From Akkermansia muciniphila (lineage in GTDB: Bacteria > Verrucomicrobiota > Verrucomicrobiia > Verrucomicrobiales > Akkermansiaceae), in the NCBI GenBank assembly GCA_945890645.1, contig CAMDCV010000042.1:1-34026 (forward strand): 34,026 bases of DNA, written 5' to 3'. A model generated the notes under the pieces. That model was not told the DNA's origin. It saw nothing but the letters and a program-made list of their open reading frames with translations, and made no database searches. Within the stretch, counting starts at the first letter, position 1. The number at the start of each line of letters is the position of its first letter. Position numbers and translations under genes: made by a program. Below, piece by piece: positions 12,330 to 17,988 of the stretch.

Positions 12330-12941
12330 TTAGCGGGAGTAAAGCTCCACGATCAACTGCTCGTTGACCATTGGATCCACATCCGAACGCTCTGGCACGC
12401 GGGATACACTGCCTTCAAGGGCGGTGCGATCAAGAGTCAACCAATCAACCAAAGGCACGGCTTGGGTGAGGTCGAGCATGCGCAGACCGATTTGCTGCGA
12501 AGAAGGCTTAGCGGAGAGTTTAATCACGTCCCCTGCTTTGCACTCGTAGCTAGCAATGTCCACCACGTGACCGTTGACGAGCACGTGGCCGTGATTGACC
12601 AACTGACGGGCAGCCTGACGGCTGTTGCCGAAACCGAGACGGTAGCAAACATTGTCGAGACGGAGTTCCAGCAATTGCAGAATGATTTCACCGGTGATAC
12701 CACGACGGCGTGCAGCCTCTTCGTAGTAGCCACGGAATTGTTTTTCAAGAACGCCGTATTGGAAACGGAGTTTTTGTTTTTCGCCGAGAGCCACCGAGTA
12801 TTCACTCTTCTTCTTACGACCTGCACGGATGCCGTGCTGACCGGGTGGGAAATTGCGGCGCTCCAACGATTTGTTGGAACCAAACAAAGGCACACCGAAG
12901 CGGCGGCTGATTCTTGTGCGGGGACCTGTATAACGTGCCAT
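12330..12941 (-). CDS. rpsD: 30S ribosomal protein S4
   Basis: This encodes 203 residues starting MARYTGPRTR, the expected S4 start; an in-frame extension upstream to 12995 overlaps the end of rpsK and is not part of the protein. The S4 core is intact, including FGNSRQAARQLVNHGHVLVNG in the S4 RNA-binding domain (about residues 100-120). S4 nucleates assembly of the small subunit body and, in enterobacteria, represses its own operon. It is the last gene of the unit rpsM-rpsK-rpsD and is followed by an intrinsic terminator, without rpoA or rplQ. Confidence 0.97.
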   Translation of the reverse strand: MARYTGPRTRISRRFGVPLFGSNKSLERRNFPPGQHGIRAGRKKKSEYSVALGEKQKLRFQYGVLEKQFRGYYEEAARRRGITGEIILQLLELRLDNVCYRLGFGNSRQAARQLVNHGHVLVNGHVVDIASYECKAGDVIKLSAKPSSQQIGLRMLDLTQAVPLVDWLTLDRTALEGSVSRVPERSDVDPMVNEQLIVELYSR

Positions 12942-12964
12942 GATCTTATGAGTAAAAGTAAATA

Positions 12965-13483
12965 TTAGACGCGACGAGCTTTTTTCGGACGGCAACCGTT
13001 GTGTGGAACGGGAGTGACATCGTCGATGGAAATGATTTCGATACCGATGGTTTGCACGGCACGCACAGCGGACTCACGACCAGAACCGGGACCCTTAACG
13101 CGCACTTCAGCTTCACGGAGACCGTGACCCATGGCTTGACGACAAGCGTCCTGGCACACCACCTGAGCGGCGTATGCGGTGCTCTTACGTGAGCCTTTGA
13201 AACCCATTTTACCAGCGCTGGACCAACCGAGCGCATTGCCCAAGGCGTCCGTCACTGAAACGAGAGTGTTGTTAAAGGTCGATGTGACGTGCACAATGCC
13301 TTTGCTGATGTTTTTCGAGCCTTTGGCCTTGTGAATTTTGATCACTGCCTCTTCGCCACCGGCGATTTCCGCAAAAATATCGCGGCGCTCATCTTTTTTC
13401 GGAGCCACCACTTCTGCGGTTGCGGCTGGCGCTTCTACGGGAGCGGCCACTTGTGGTTCAATCGTGTTGTTTTCCTCAGACAT
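12965..13483 (-). CDS. rpsK: 30S ribosomal protein S11 with N-terminal extension
   Basis: The product has 172 residues against about 129 usually. The conserved S11 body starts near residue 62 ([12 protein letters not shown]) and runs to the typical end ([18 protein letters not shown]). The extra 40 or so residues are rich in Ala, Pro, Glu and Val, acidic at first and then basic (PKKDERRD), and look disordered. S11 forms part of the platform near the mRNA exit. The ATG at 13483 is the upstream-most start and follows the rpsM stop by 16 bases. An internal start that would give a normal length is not evident, so the extension is probably real. Confidence 0.96.
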
Positions 13484-13499
13484 AGTAATGGAGATCTAA

Positions 13500-13868
13500 T
13501 TATTTCTTAACGCCCACGGTCTTCTTCTTACCTTTGCGGGTGCGGGCATTGGTGCGGGTGCGCTGACCACGAACTGGCAAGCCACGCTTGTGACGGATGC
13601 CGCGGTAGCAGTTGATGGACGTAAGACGTTTCAGCGAGACTTGACGCTCACGACGAAGGTCACCTTCGATGGCGATGCCATTGCTCTGGATCGCTTGCGC
13701 GATTTTCACGAGTTGCTCCTCGGAAAGCTGCCCCGTGCGGATGTCGGGATCAATCCCGGCTTGCTCAAGGATCTTCGTGGCTGTCGGGCGACCGATGCCA
13801 TAAATGAACGGAAGAGAAGCTTCGATGCGCTTCTCATTAGGAATTTCTATACCGAAAATGCGGGCCAT
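13500..13868 (-). CDS. rpsM: 30S ribosomal protein S13
   Basis: The protein has 122 residues starting [26 protein letters not shown], the usual S13 start. The helix-two-turn-helix region is followed by [26 protein letters not shown], which is the S13 hallmark, and a Lys-rich tail. S13 sits in the head of the small subunit and contacts the P-site tRNA and S19. It is the first gene of this unit, with a candidate promoter about 65 bases upstream; rpmJ, infA and secY, which often precede it, are not here. Confidence 0.97.
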
Positions 13869-14000: not shown

Positions 14001-14495
14001 TTATTTTGCGGTGAAATTTGCATTTTCGGCGGAAAACACGGCAAAATCAGCGTCCGACCAGAGTTGCGCCACCAGTGACTCCTGAGCTCTCTCCATCACG
14101 ATCCTTTGGCTTTCCTGATCATCAAGATGACCAGCCAAATGAAGCATCCCGTGGATGATGTAGCGCAGTATTTCGCGCAAGACCGGCTCACCATGGTCAC
14201 TCGCCTGCGCATCTGCGATGGCCGGACAAATAATCAACTCGCCATGCAAAAAAGTGATCACATCGGTTGCACCCGCGATGTCCATAAATGCCCGATGAAT
14301 TCGATCCGATTCCGCAGCGCTGACAAAAGCAATCTCAAGCGACTCGATCTCTGCCAAATGATGATCCTGGCACGCATACTGAGGAAGTCGTGACCACACG
14401 CGACAGGACGCTCGCTGCAACTCAGCAATCCAAGTACAGGGCAAGACCAATTCGTTTTGATGATCGATCAACTCGACAAATACCTCGTCTTTCAT
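14001..14495 (-). CDS. ybeY: endoribonuclease YbeY (rRNA maturation factor)
   Basis: The protein has 164 residues, normal for the family. The metal site is recognisable as HGMLHLAGHLDD (about residues 114-125): the first two His are in place, while the third ligand of the usual HGxLHLxGYDH pattern is Asp, with a His two positions earlier. Other branches, such as Bacteroidetes, also end this motif in Asp. YbeY trims 16S rRNA 3' ends and helps ribosome quality control. Its start overlaps the stop of the upstream HD-domain gene by 4 bases, the common neighbourhood of ybeY. No phoH is present here. Confidence 0.9.
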   Translation of the reverse strand: MKDEVFVELIDHQNELVLPCTWIAELQRASCRVWSRLPQYACQDHHLAEIESLEIAFVSAAESDRIHRAFMDIAGATDVITFLHGELIICPAIADAQASDHGEPVLREILRYIIHGMLHLAGHLDDQESQRIVMERAQESLVAQLWSDADFAVFSAENANFTAK

Positions 14496-16120
14496 GGCTC
14501 ACTCGTTGATGCCTCCTCCTCTTTTTTCTCTACTGCCGATTTCCCACCATTGCTTTTGCGATCAGCGATCTCTTCGGTCTTGGTGTAACTAATACGGCTG
14601 TGCATCATACTGCGTAGGGTGTTGGCGAAACTATCGCGCACCTTCGTCAACTCACGCAATGTCAGAGTGCAATCATCAAGTTGCCCATCGATCCAACGCG
14701 ACCGCACAATATCATCCACGAGCCCACGGATTTTGATAGGATTTGGTTTTTTGAGAGAGCGCGAGGCACTCTCGATCGCATCTGCCAAACTCAAGATGCC
14801 GGTCTCTTTTGATCGTGGTCTCGGCCCAGGATAACGGAAATTCTTATCGTCCACCTGCGGCAGGTCTTCGATGTTTTCCAAACCTTTGCCAACCTTGTCC
14901 TGTTCTAACGCTTTCAGTTCTTGGCATTTGCGATAGAAATAATAAACCATCGAGTCGCCATGATGTTCGAGAATGGCATCAATGATACGCGGATTGAGCT
15001 TATGCTTCAGCGCCATGTCGACGCCATCTTTGACGTGCGCGATGATGACCAAGGCACTCATGGTGGGCGTCAATGCATCGTGTGGGTTCTCCATGCCATC
15101 GGCTTGGTTCTCTATGAAATACTCAGGCTTCTTGAGCTTTCCTACATCGTGAAAATACGCACAAGCACGGCACAGTGCCGCGTTTGCACCGATTGACTCC
15201 GCCGCTGATTCAGCCAACGATGCGACGACTAAACTATGATGAAAAGTGCCCGGCGCATCGAGCTGCATTTTCTTGAGCAAGGGATGATTCAAATCGCAGA
15301 GTTCAAGCCAGCTGATGTTCGTGGTCAGGGAAAACGCGCCTTCCAGTAACGGCAATAGCCCGCTCACGATCAAAGCCGTGATGAAACCAACGCCAAAAGC
15401 TACTCCAAACAAAGTTCCGTCTGAAAGTAAGCGCTCGGCACCTAACAACACATCGCCAAAAATCACCGCAAACACCAAGGAGAGCCCGCCCGCGTAAATC
15501 CCTGCTCGCAGCAACTGCAACCGTTTCCGCACGCGACTGGTCAAGAGAACCACCGTAATTCCACAGGCGAGACTCATCAACAGATAGAGCACCACCTCTT
15601 CGGTCGGAATCAACAAACTCCCTGCAATGCTTATGAATACAGCACTGAAAGTGCCCACTCGCCTACCAAGAAGCACCGCGTGCACCATCGGCACTAAGCC
15701 AAACGGAATCAGCAACAACTTGTATTCACTGCGTAAGTGATAGATGTCGACCCAGTGAGAAATCAAAAATACCACTGTCAGTTGCAATAGAACTCCGCCT
15801 AAAAGCAACACCATGACTCCATTCTTGCGCGTCAAATCGCGATGATTCAAGTGCAGCATGATCAAGGCAGTGACGCCCAAAACCATCGCGCTAAGAGCAC
15901 TTTGCCAATTCTGTGTGGCCCATTTCCCTGTGTGTGGGTGCTGCATCACCAGCGCTGTCAAATAAGTCACAAACGAGAAACATAACAGCCAATAGACCCA
16001 GCGGGCATTTCCCAGCAATGCCCCAATGCGTTCGTCAGCATCATAGACCCGACGTTTTTTTCCCGAGGAAAGACCCTGCTGAGCCAATTTCCATCGTTTG
16101 AACGCATCCCAAAATCCCAC
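14492..16120 (-). CDS. 7TM-HD (PgpH-like) membrane phosphodiesterase
   Basis: The product has 542 residues with a GTG start. After a short basic N-terminus, membrane helices run from residue 41 to about 258, then a cytoplasmic HD domain follows: HHSLV at 294-298, HD at 324-325 (FHDVGK), H362, and H386-H387. This is the architecture of 7TMR-HD proteins such as PgpH, which hydrolyse c-di-AMP. Classical PgpH proteins have over 700 residues because of a large extracellular 7TMR-HDED domain; here only a stub of tens of residues lies between the first helices, so sensing by that domain is absent. Its stop overlaps the start of ybeY (ATGA), so the two are cotranslated. Substrate is inferred from the family. 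Confidence 0.82.
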   Translation of the reverse strand: MGFWDAFKRWKLAQQGLSSGKKRRVYDADERIGALLGNARWVYWLLCFSFVTYLTALVMQHPHTGKWATQNWQSALSAMVLGVTALIMLHLNHRDLTRKNGVMVLLLGGVLLQLTVVFLISHWVDIYHLRSEYKLLLIPFGLVPMVHAVLLGRRVGTFSAVFISIAGSLLIPTEEVVLYLLMSLACGITVVLLTSRVRKRLQLLRAGIYAGGLSLVFAVIFGDVLLGAERLLSDGTLFGVAFGVGFITALIVSGLLPLLEGAFSLTTNISWLELCDLNHPLLKKMQLDAPGTFHHSLVVASLAESAAESIGANAALCRACAYFHDVGKLKKPEYFIENQADGMENPHDALTPTMSALVIIAHVKDGVDMALKHKLNPRIIDAILEHHGDSMVYYFYRKCQELKALEQDKVGKGLENIEDLPQVDDKNFRYPGPRPRSKETGILSLADAIESASRSLKKPNPIKIRGLVDDIVRSRWIDGQLDDCTLTLRELTKVRDSFANTLRSMMHSRISYTKTEEIADRKSNGGKSAVEKKEEEASTSEP

Positions 16121-16299: not shown

Positions 16300-16392
16300 C
16301 CTGGCAAAAATGAAGCGGTCCGATCAAAATACCTAGGAAAAACCCAAAACCTAGAGCGAAGTGATCGGACCGCCTTTTAGTCGCATTGCGAC
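16300..16392 (-). ncRNA. candidate structured small RNA or leader
   Basis: A transcript starting near 16392 would first form a small GTCGC-AAT-GCGAC hairpin, then a long bipartite stem-loop. The outer stem is 12 perfect base pairs (GCGGTCCGATCA at 16315-16326 with TGATCGGACCGC at 16362-16373) and an inner stem pairs 16333-16337 with 16350-16354. On the minus strand the stem is followed by TTCATTTTT, a plausible termination tract. No open frame fits. It could be a free small RNA, or an attenuator leader of the HD-domain/ybeY operon whose start lies about 180 bases further on. It does not show the conserved motifs of SRP RNA, RNase P RNA or tmRNA. Confidence 0.5.
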
Positions 16393-16398
16393 ACGCGT

Positions 16399-16455
16399 AA
16401 GATAGCAAAAGTGGCGCCCACGTCAAGCATTTTACTATTTTTTTTTGATTTTTTT
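16399..16455 (-). promoter_or_regulatory. strong sigma70-type promoter with UP-like A-tracts
   Basis: On the minus strand, TTGACG (16421-16426) and TATCTT (16399-16404) are 16 bases apart, with a TG just before the -10. Upstream of the -35 are two A-runs of seven and nine residues (16449-16455 and 16438-16446), like the UP elements of stable-RNA promoters. A GC-rich discriminator follows the -10. It faces the structured RNA. Confidence 0.6.
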
Positions 16456-16617
16456 CATCAGCCACTAAAAACCAAGCAAGATCAATGATTATCTGAGCCA
16501 AAAAAGTGACCCAAGCGAGTAATTCCAGGAACTACCCTAGATCTGCAGCAATGATTGACCAACATCTGCCTAAATATTGAGAAACCGAGTCGCATCGCAA
16601 AAATGCGAGCAATTTGG

Positions 16618-17784
16618 TTAGGCTAACATTTTTTGCAACTGTGTGCGCAGCACCCCCATCAGCGGATCTTCGACTCCTCGCTCTCGTCTCCCGTCGACTA
16701 CAATCGCTTCGCCAACAGTAAGAGTTACATGCATCGGACGATGAATGGTCGGCGTGCGTGTGCCCAAGGCCTCTTCATAGCGTTCTACAGTTTCAATGAT
16801 TCGCTCAGGTGTAGGATTTTGAACAATGTAGTCCGGCGGAAAATGATAGGCCATTTGCGCTACTTCCAAATCAAACAACATTTTCCAACGCATCTCACGT
16901 TCGTCTTGTTCGAGTTCCCCCGCCACCAAAGCTGGCAGCAATGCCTTGCGTAAGTTCTTCACCCGCATCACCACACTTTCCTCACTGCGACCTGCCAAAT
17001 ATAGTTGCTCCATCGGCGTAAGCACACGATCCATGAAACGGCTGAGTCTTTGCTCCACAGTTCCTTCTTGCACGACCCCGAAATATTCCACCTCTTTCAG
17101 ACCTAACAATCCATAGCCCAAGCGTGATACCCGCTCTAACAAAGTTGCATTCGCTGCCTTCCATCCAAAGCGCTGCTCCAGAGACGCGACCACGGGAAGC
17201 ACCGATGCCTGCCAATCGCCAGCGAAGCGATAGCGAATCGCTAATGGATGAATCACCACCTTCCCTCCCGTCGATGCACGAGCTTTCGCAGCACTGCGCG
17301 CGAGAAAAGAAATCCCTTCCTGCAAATGGATCACGCGATCATTCGTGCGGGTGATCACGCCTTCAGGAAAAACTACCAGCGGACGTTTCGCTTCCGTAAG
17401 TATCCCCGTAGCCGCCTTTAAAGACTCACGGTCCATGCCTTCACGGTTCATACTGAAAGCTCCCACTCGCGGAAGCAGCCAGGCCATCCATCGCGAGCGG
17501 AACAAATGAGCACTTGCCATGATATAGGGCGGCCTACCCATTTTTTGAGTCAGGGCAGAAAGTAACAGTGGATCGCAGGGACGACAATGATTCGGAGCAA
17601 TCATAATTCCATGCCCCGCCGCCATCGATTCACGAATTCGCTCTCCAAAGCAAACTTCGATCGATTCGATTCCCCAGTAACTACGCAACCTACGTCTCAT
17701 CCCCAACCCAATGATCCATGGCCAAAAACGGCTATCGCGCGGCGGTGTAAAACGATAAGCTTCTTCACTCACCAATGGCTGCAT
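16618..17784 (-). CDS. PlsC-type 1-acyl-glycerol-phosphate acyltransferase family
   Basis: From the ATG at 17784 the product has 388 residues; a GTG at 17841 would add 19 residues but would run into the tRNA promoter area. The acyltransferase block I is present as NHCRPCD (H66-x4-D71), and block III as FPEG (139-142). These form the active site that moves an acyl chain from a thioester to a glycerol-phosphate-type acceptor. The C-terminal 180 residues (about 210-388) are an extra, mostly helical, part not found in the short PlsC proteins. It probably acts in phospholipid or other lipid assembly at the inner membrane. It is monocistronic, separated by a long gap from the HD-domain gene. Confidence 0.8.
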
Positions 17785-17849
17785 GTCGTCAATGCACCAA
17801 AGCCGCGCACCCTGGTCGAGGGAAAAATGGTTGTGTCCCACAGTTTTGC

Positions 17850-17900: not shown

Positions 17901-17988
17901 GGAGAGGTGGTAGAGTGGTCGATTGCGCCAGTCTTGAAAACTGGAGAGCCGAAAGGTTCCGTGGGTTCGAATCCCACCCTCTCCGCCA
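17901..17988 (+). tRNA. tRNA-Ser (anticodon UGA), CCA encoded
   Basis: The acceptor stem pairs GGAGAGG (17901-17907) with CCTCTCC (17978-17984), with G as discriminator and an encoded CCA (17986-17988). The anticodon stem CCAGT/ACTGG encloses the loop CTTGAAA, giving anticodon TGA, which reads UCA serine codons. A long variable arm (GAGAGCCGAAAGGTTCC region) precedes the T arm GTGGG-TTCGAAT-CCCAC, as expected for a class II serine tRNA. Confidence 0.96.

Follow-up and report, generated by a model that had tools for sequence, protein, structure and literature searches.

Does the structured element in a gene-free gap of an Akkermansia muciniphila genome represent a small RNA gene in its own right, or is it a regulatory part of the operon that lies beside it? 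The gap is found within a stretch of 34,026 nucleotides (contig CAMDCV010000042.1, the whole of which is called here the window), between a 7TM-HD gene (14492-16120) and an acyltransferase gene (16618-17841). The original prediction had described A-tracts, TTGACG, a 16-nt spacer, an extended -10, a GC-rich discriminator, stems and a T-rich tract on the minus strand, and all of them are indeed present there. The 7TM-HD gene is the next gene downstream of the RNA, on the same strand and about 190 bp away, and the YbeY gene comes after it. The neighborhood also contains the genes of ribosomal proteins S13, S11 and S4, located after ybeY on the same strand (12330-13868, minus), and a tRNA-Ser (TGA) gene (17901-17988, plus) between the acyltransferase and the SRAP genes. 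The elements of the putative RNA gene are the following.

16427-16457, minus strand: A-tract, a UP-element-like stretch upstream of the -35, with 21 A among the 30 nt that precede TTGAC
16421-16426, minus strand: -35 hexamer TTGACG; all 10 core copies of the genus have TTGAC at -48 to -51 relative to the core
16399-16407, minus strand: extended -10, TGC TATCTT, with the hexamer TATCTT at 16404-16399 and a spacer of 16 nt to the -35
16306-16392, minus strand: predicted sRNA transcript of ca. 87 nt, as deduced from the -10 spacing, the 5' motif GTCG/GTCA and the U-tail
16380-16392, minus strand: 5' mini-hairpin GUCGC-AAU-GCGAC, a predicted fold with one compensatory change in the genus
16362-16374, minus strand: 5' arm of the outer stem, GGCGGTCCGATCA, from fold and covariation
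16350-16354, minus strand: 5' arm of the inner stem, CTAGG, from fold and covariation
16338-16349, minus strand: apical loop of 12 nt, UUUUGGGUUUUU, the exposed and strongly conserved unpaired part
16333-16337, minus strand: 3' arm of the inner stem, CCTAG, from fold and covariation
16314-16326, minus strand: 3' arm of the outer stem, TGATCGGACCGCT, from fold and covariation
16306-16314, minus strand: U-rich tail, TTCATTTTT, which together with the stem makes an intrinsic-terminator-like end

Transcription would start at 16392, the G of GTCGC, at the standard spacing from the -10 TATCTT and after the GC-rich discriminator, and the predicted RNA would extend to ca. 16306, with the tail UUCAUUUUU. 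The fold energy was -38.5 versus a shuffle mean of -21.2 (sd 3.1), i.e., a z score of -5.5, and none of 200 shuffles was as low. A stem of 12 bp had been proposed; the stem itself stands, and its length has to be corrected to 13–14 bp (16374-16362 with 16326-16314). An internal loop separates it from the inner stem of 5 bp (16354-16350 with 16337-16333), which we found as predicted. By itself the promoter match is weak (three in the region versus 1.1 expected in shuffles, not significant), and no terminator was called by a generic scan that permits only loops of 3–8 nt, smaller than the one in this hairpin. The case for the RNA rests on its conservation (10/10 genomes of the genus) and on covariation. 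A sigma54-like GG-N10-GC site with three mismatches overlaps the sigma70 promoter of the window (16404-16419, minus strand); since it was not seen in any of the other nine core copies of the genus, the match is probably due to chance.

When the gap was compared by blastn to 38 genomes (its own included) 12 of them matched, the ten of the genus and two of the 28 others, and the conserved block extended from the promoter to the U-tail. A covariance analysis had been suggested as a check, and the compensatory changes in the stems are present. Already in a free MAFFT alignment of 15 copies (A1), nine of the 20 pairs had kept double changes. With 69 copies in a covariance-model alignment, 96.2% of the pair cells were paired and 18 of the 20 pairs changed on both sides; the covariance-model alignments (A3, A5) are fitted to the structure of the model, the same stems being found in A1. 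This level of pairing was reached by 0 of 500 shuffles, and when the partner was slid by 1–3 columns as a control pairing fell to 23–52%. In a broader sample, of 49 copies drawn from several families, 94.5% of the cells were paired and 17/20 pairs had changes on both sides. In the 5' hairpin, a compensatory change to GUCAC..GUGAC was found in two of the 11 copies of the genus, and the innermost pair was lost in three of them. As far as comparison of sequences can establish it, the structure and its conservation are real.

The unpaired parts were followed over 108 distinct copies (114 collected minus six duplicates) picked from the best-scoring or multi-copy genomes. In the 15 copies of A1, ten of the 12 positions of the apical loop were invariant and the other two were at least 90% conserved, and a loop motif GTT-N(0-4)-GGG(GG)-TTT was present in 105 of the 108 copies. 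Distant members have kept the G-run, such as GGUUUUGGGGGUUUUUUUCC in family f4 and CUUCGGGGGGAGG in one f21 copy. In the sigma54-type copies of f19 the run reaches up to 8 G, and one of the five reads GGAGGG, while a second type of f19 copy (e.g., GUUUCAUGGUUUUUCC) has only two G's in the loop. At the 3' end, the 9-nt window contained a mean of 6.1 T over the 108 copies, against a mirrored A count of 3.2 on the other side, i.e., the U-tail is one-sided. Upstream of the core, GTCG or GTCA was found in 90/108 copies, and the 5' part took the form of a GUC-GNRA-GAC mini-hairpin in 30, of GUCGCGACA in 36 and of a longer hairpin in 13, with 29 copies showing none of these.

The gene context of the element is far from constant. 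The ten core copies of the genus are found in five contexts, as judged from blastp clusters of the neighboring ORFs: beside the acyltransferase (the window, L155 and L160), beside a tRNA synthetase/hexapeptide/Lon-domain group (L156, L159 and L162), beside an SMC and LGT pair (L157 and L158), and two contexts seen once each (L161 and L163). A Pfam search at four loci of the genus identified Lon-domain, LGT, SMC, Lactamase_B and MPAB genes as neighbors. When small ORFs overlapping the RNA were disregarded, the nearest downstream gene was convergent in 8/10 genomes; the two exceptions, oriented like the RNA, were 7TM-HD in the window and a Lactamase_B-fold gene in L161. That the element is a 5' leader or attenuator of the downstream 7TM-HD/ybeY operon, as the original prediction had offered and as the order of the two genes on the same strand in the window would suggest, is refuted for the family as a whole by these convergent genes and by the absence of 7TM-HD or YbeY relatives from the stretches fetched around the RNA in the other nine genomes of the genus, and it has become a very improbable explanation. 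By its sequence, the element carries its own promoter and terminator signals with no constant neighbor gene, as is general for trans-acting sRNAs.

The promoters are of more than one type. Every core copy of the genus (10/10) has 16–22 A in the 30 nt before TTGAC. Among the 106 copies with 75 nt of upstream sequence, 41 have TTGAC at -46 to -51 (shuffles for -53 to -44, mean 1.0, maximum 4), 22 carry a sigma54 -24/-12 site with no more than two mismatches (shuffles, mean 0.26, maximum 3) and 43 have neither type, by criteria based on the consensus strings of sigma54 and TTGAC that were fixed after some sequences had been seen and with shuffles that were single-base. Because the copies came from hand-picked genomes, these shares are not population estimates. 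Eighteen of the 22 sigma54 sites are located at -36 to -46, and the other four, at -71/-72, all belong to family f2, which has a longer 5' part. At 20 further loci from six families we found seven more sigma54 sites (at most two mismatches), all at -36/-37 and all in two distant families: five belong to a single type of f19 copy and the other two to the pair of f21 copies. These seven come from genomes outside the 106-copy set. The DNA-binding domain of sigma54 was detected in 37/38 relatives. Within the own family, sigma70-like and sigma54-like promoters alike are followed by the GTCG motif, and we read the fixed promoter distances as the best stand-in that sequence can provide for a mapped start. 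Some copies with neither promoter type have other upstream signatures in common (L227 and L254; L236, L237 and L251; L241, L244 and L245), namely a GAGATG..CATCTC palindrome, CCAATCGCCAA and TCGATA..GCGTAT, which may be recognized by other sigma factors or by regulators.

From two to four copies can stand side by side, separated by 161–861 bp from start to start (L155, L156, L159, L166, L167, L168 and L169). The four copies of L167 have upstream sequence in common, so some copies are recent duplicates. Such duplicates, together with the several copies per genome and with a stem and U-tract located at gene ends and often between convergent genes, would fit an element that yields no RNA of its own, either a conserved intrinsic terminator or a REP-like palindromic repeat. 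Against this, promoter-like sites of two kinds are found at set distances upstream, the 5' motif is conserved, the U-tract is one-sided, the apical loop has been kept beyond the requirements of a terminator and, outside L167 and the counterparts across genomes, the upstream flanks of the paralogues differ when inspected by eye. We consider this explanation improbable.

The reading that we prefer, with a probability of about 0.67, is that the window contains a free-standing sRNA gene of ca. 87 nt, the core copy of a family, the loop of which acts in trans on one common partner. A sigma70-type promoter of its own would drive transcription of the RNA on the minus strand, and its hairpin and U-tract would terminate it. 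It would have the shape of a rod, with a tiny 5' hairpin followed by a long terminator hairpin that exposes U's around a run of G's. The loop would be the working part, and the single partner on which it acts could be an RNA-binding protein, titrated or guided by the RNA, or a set of RNAs that pair with the loop. Paralogues with a similar loop behind sigma70-, sigma54- and other promoters would feed different signals into the same response. The alternative of an unannotated small RNA in the original prediction is strongly supported by the compensatory stem changes, the promoter at a fixed distance and the one-sided U-tail; transcription, action in trans and the role of the loop as binding site are what we infer from this pattern. 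Several observations count against the preferred reading, namely the 43 of 106 copies with neither promoter type, the 29 of 108 that fit none of the 5' hairpin forms, the second f19 copy type with its two loop G's, the lack of a variable seed in the 5' part and the lack of enrichment of the loop complement (see below).

The distribution of the family was followed at several taxonomic ranks. Model R1 (E ≤ 0.001) matched 93 of 189 genomes and 24 of 43 genera of the own order, five of the 93 (G028, G042, G062, G088 and G179) by matches of 34–41 bases only. Within the own family, model R2 (E ≤ 1e-4) matched 71/145 genomes and 9/16 genera, with up to 11 copies in one genome (G122). In a sample of the phylum, R2 matched 21/387 genomes, 16 of them in the own order and five outside it at E values of 2.4e-6 to 8e-5; two of these five look real (L182 and L184) and three are plain GC hairpins (L183, L185 and L186). 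A class sample searched with R3 gave 56/384 genomes and 21/171 genera, including outside the own order 11 f19 genomes, two f21 genomes and five others (G386, G528, G694, G716 and G770) with matches of 33–48 bases only. These tallies are slightly inflated by the short matches and plain hairpins counted in. All of the 12 f19 and two f21 copies that we inspected showed the stem, capped by a loop that contains G or U. The 20 genomes listed for genus g3, which belongs to the same family, gave no match to R2 or R3, and the two R1 matches in its member G088 (41 and 38 bases) were not confirmed by these models; absences are soft, as the searches over more than 40 genomes use stricter filters.

The records with names that a pattern scan retrieved were Akkermansiaceae MAGs, Luteolibacter and Haloferula. 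Spread to other phyla was considered and rejected: 29 of the 93 genome-contig stretches that fit the pattern have a perfect helix of at least 12 bp around the loop and all 29 carry Verrucomicrobiota-type names, L059 (11-bp helix) had no R3 match at E ≤ 1, and the other 63 have helices of 10 bp or less. A phage origin was likewise discarded, the best R3 score among the 14 IMG/VR stretches that matched the pattern being 17.2 bits (E 0.02). Thirteen of them (L141-L147, L149-L154) contain a different, A+T-rich element with TATACCCGATTGCGTATA-like blocks and the same TTTTGGGTTTTTC word, and five have helices of 11–15 bp; this phage-contig element resembles the RNA model only weakly and may at most be distantly linked to the family. 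Of the extra matches in the own genome, two weak ones proved to be plain terminators (L017 and L018), and a third, L016, is the antisense of the RNA itself. As far as we have searched, the RNA family is confined to Verrucomicrobiae.

That the RNA belongs to no known family, as had been stated, was borne out by comparison with Rfam 15. The only gathering-level match in the whole window was a tRNA outside the RNA, and at E ≤ 5 the gap gave two snoRNA matches (E 0.55 and 2), both of them outside the RNA. A search at E ≤ 1 of 33 loci, including paralogues and distant homologues, gave no gathering-level match on the RNA; a MIR848 match at E 1 on the opposite strand of the RNA in L227 scored 21.9 bits versus a gathering threshold of 90. 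6S RNA (RF00013), which is alike in being a small structured RNA driven by a promoter, was rejected as an identity: the only match of the genome to it lies on another contig (G000:C15:16576-16758, 49.1 bits), and its model is 187 nt long versus ca. 87 nt here, with another fold. GlmY and GlmZ follow a decoy logic through a binding protein and have sigma54/sigma70 promoters; the decoy logic is alike, with no sequence or structural likeness shown. We found no study of such an sRNA in Verrucomicrobia in the open-licence literature, and the main text of two genome-scale RNA discovery papers (PMC11109978, PMC8632094) does not mention the phylum. This is apparently a real sRNA family, undescribed so far.

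The nearest known systems, in logic and not in sequence, are the Qrr and Yfr2 sRNAs. The Qrr sRNAs of Vibrionaceae are described as several largely redundant copies with sigma54 sites and little other upstream likeness, having four stem-loops and acting through Hfq (PMC8043402). Sigma54 sites on several paralogues are common to both systems (here in 22/106 plus 7/20 copies). However, the Qrr sRNAs belong to another phylum and have four stem-loops where we find a mini-hairpin and one terminator hairpin, with Hfq not detected, and they carry sigma54 sites whereas the core copy in the genus of the window is of sigma70 type. Yfr2 of cyanobacteria is a multi-copy RNA (nine in one Synechococcus) at unconserved loci with conserved motifs, one of which sits in a stem-loop (PMC6778093). 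Several copies at unconserved loci and a conserved unpaired motif are features of both, by analogy and not by likeness of the motifs themselves; Yfr2 is also from another phylum, and our RNA has no Rfam match and no complementary partner sRNA that we could find.

In copies of the common type the 5' part is short and hardly varies, which leaves no classical variable seed. Apart from the loop, nearly all of the RNA forms a rod, and paralogues keep the loop and change promoters, which favors a common partner that reads the loop; the apical loop is likely the functional site. Hfq was found in none of the 38 relatives (0/38), in a search the control of which was positive in 5/14 genomes. One way to read this result would take the hairpin with its U/G-run loop as a docking module, a handle for an RNA chaperone through which one RNA-binding protein would serve an sRNA regulon. 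The handle would replace the Hfq-binding 3' end where Hfq is not detected and would be joined to differing 5' domains (the short GUCG form, the type B form of G003, G006, G007 and G009, and longer forms in genus g7 and in f2) and to different sigma factors. We regard this reading as unlikely.

A better supported, still tentative alternative is a base-pairing sRNA of Qrr or Yfr2 type, with the loop pairing with short C/A-rich mRNA sites or with another sRNA. By analogy with those systems, the multiple copies, some with sigma54 sites, the unconserved loci and the single conserved unpaired motif would be expected of it. Against it are the negative search for Hfq in the relatives and the results for the complement of the loop. 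The 12-nt complement had 31 matches in ten genomes of the genus versus 26 for the reversed control pattern, i.e., there was no enrichment, so that full-length pairing of the loop with a conserved target is not supported. Twelve of the 31 were the RNA genes themselves, and among the other 19 sites, 18 read by eye showed nothing resembling a conserved partner sRNA; one recurring site (L202, L209) looks coding. Short-seed pairing and protein binding remain as modes of interaction with the partner.

Protein titration, in the logic of CsrB or 6S RNA, is the alternative that we rate highest, as a serious candidate that nevertheless falls short of even odds. The loop would bind a global RNA-binding protein and the output of the paralogues would set its free level. 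A constant rod with a near-constant loop and little else variable would suit such a role, and so would many copies under different promoters. The motif recognized by CsrA-type proteins is GGA, and the loop is without it; moreover, 6S RNA is encoded separately in the same genome.

Returning to the free-standing sRNA with a loop acting in trans, a covariation-backed RNA family in which effector loops of one kind are combined with promoters of sigma70, sigma54 and other types would offer a direct handle for experiments. The loop could be used as bait for the RNA-binding protein or the set of targets, and the promoters of the copies could be read as a list of incoming signals. As neither R2 nor R3 recovered the family from the 20 g3 genomes listed, the loss of the circuit can be studied as well.

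Two further paralogues deserve mention. Type B, a second and diverged one in the genus of the window, is a neighbor of the core copy in three genomes, whereas in G006 the two are on separate contigs; its copies are located at L155 7195-7264, L165 5878-5947, L156 6547-6618 and L159 6750-6820, and ACGGTCCGTAGTTG is common to the upstream region of two of the four. The other, in genus g7, which holds Haloferula (L029, L259, L260, L264 and L265), has the same hairpin after a longer and different 5' domain, where a hairpin such as GGGAG..CUCCC stands directly before the core.
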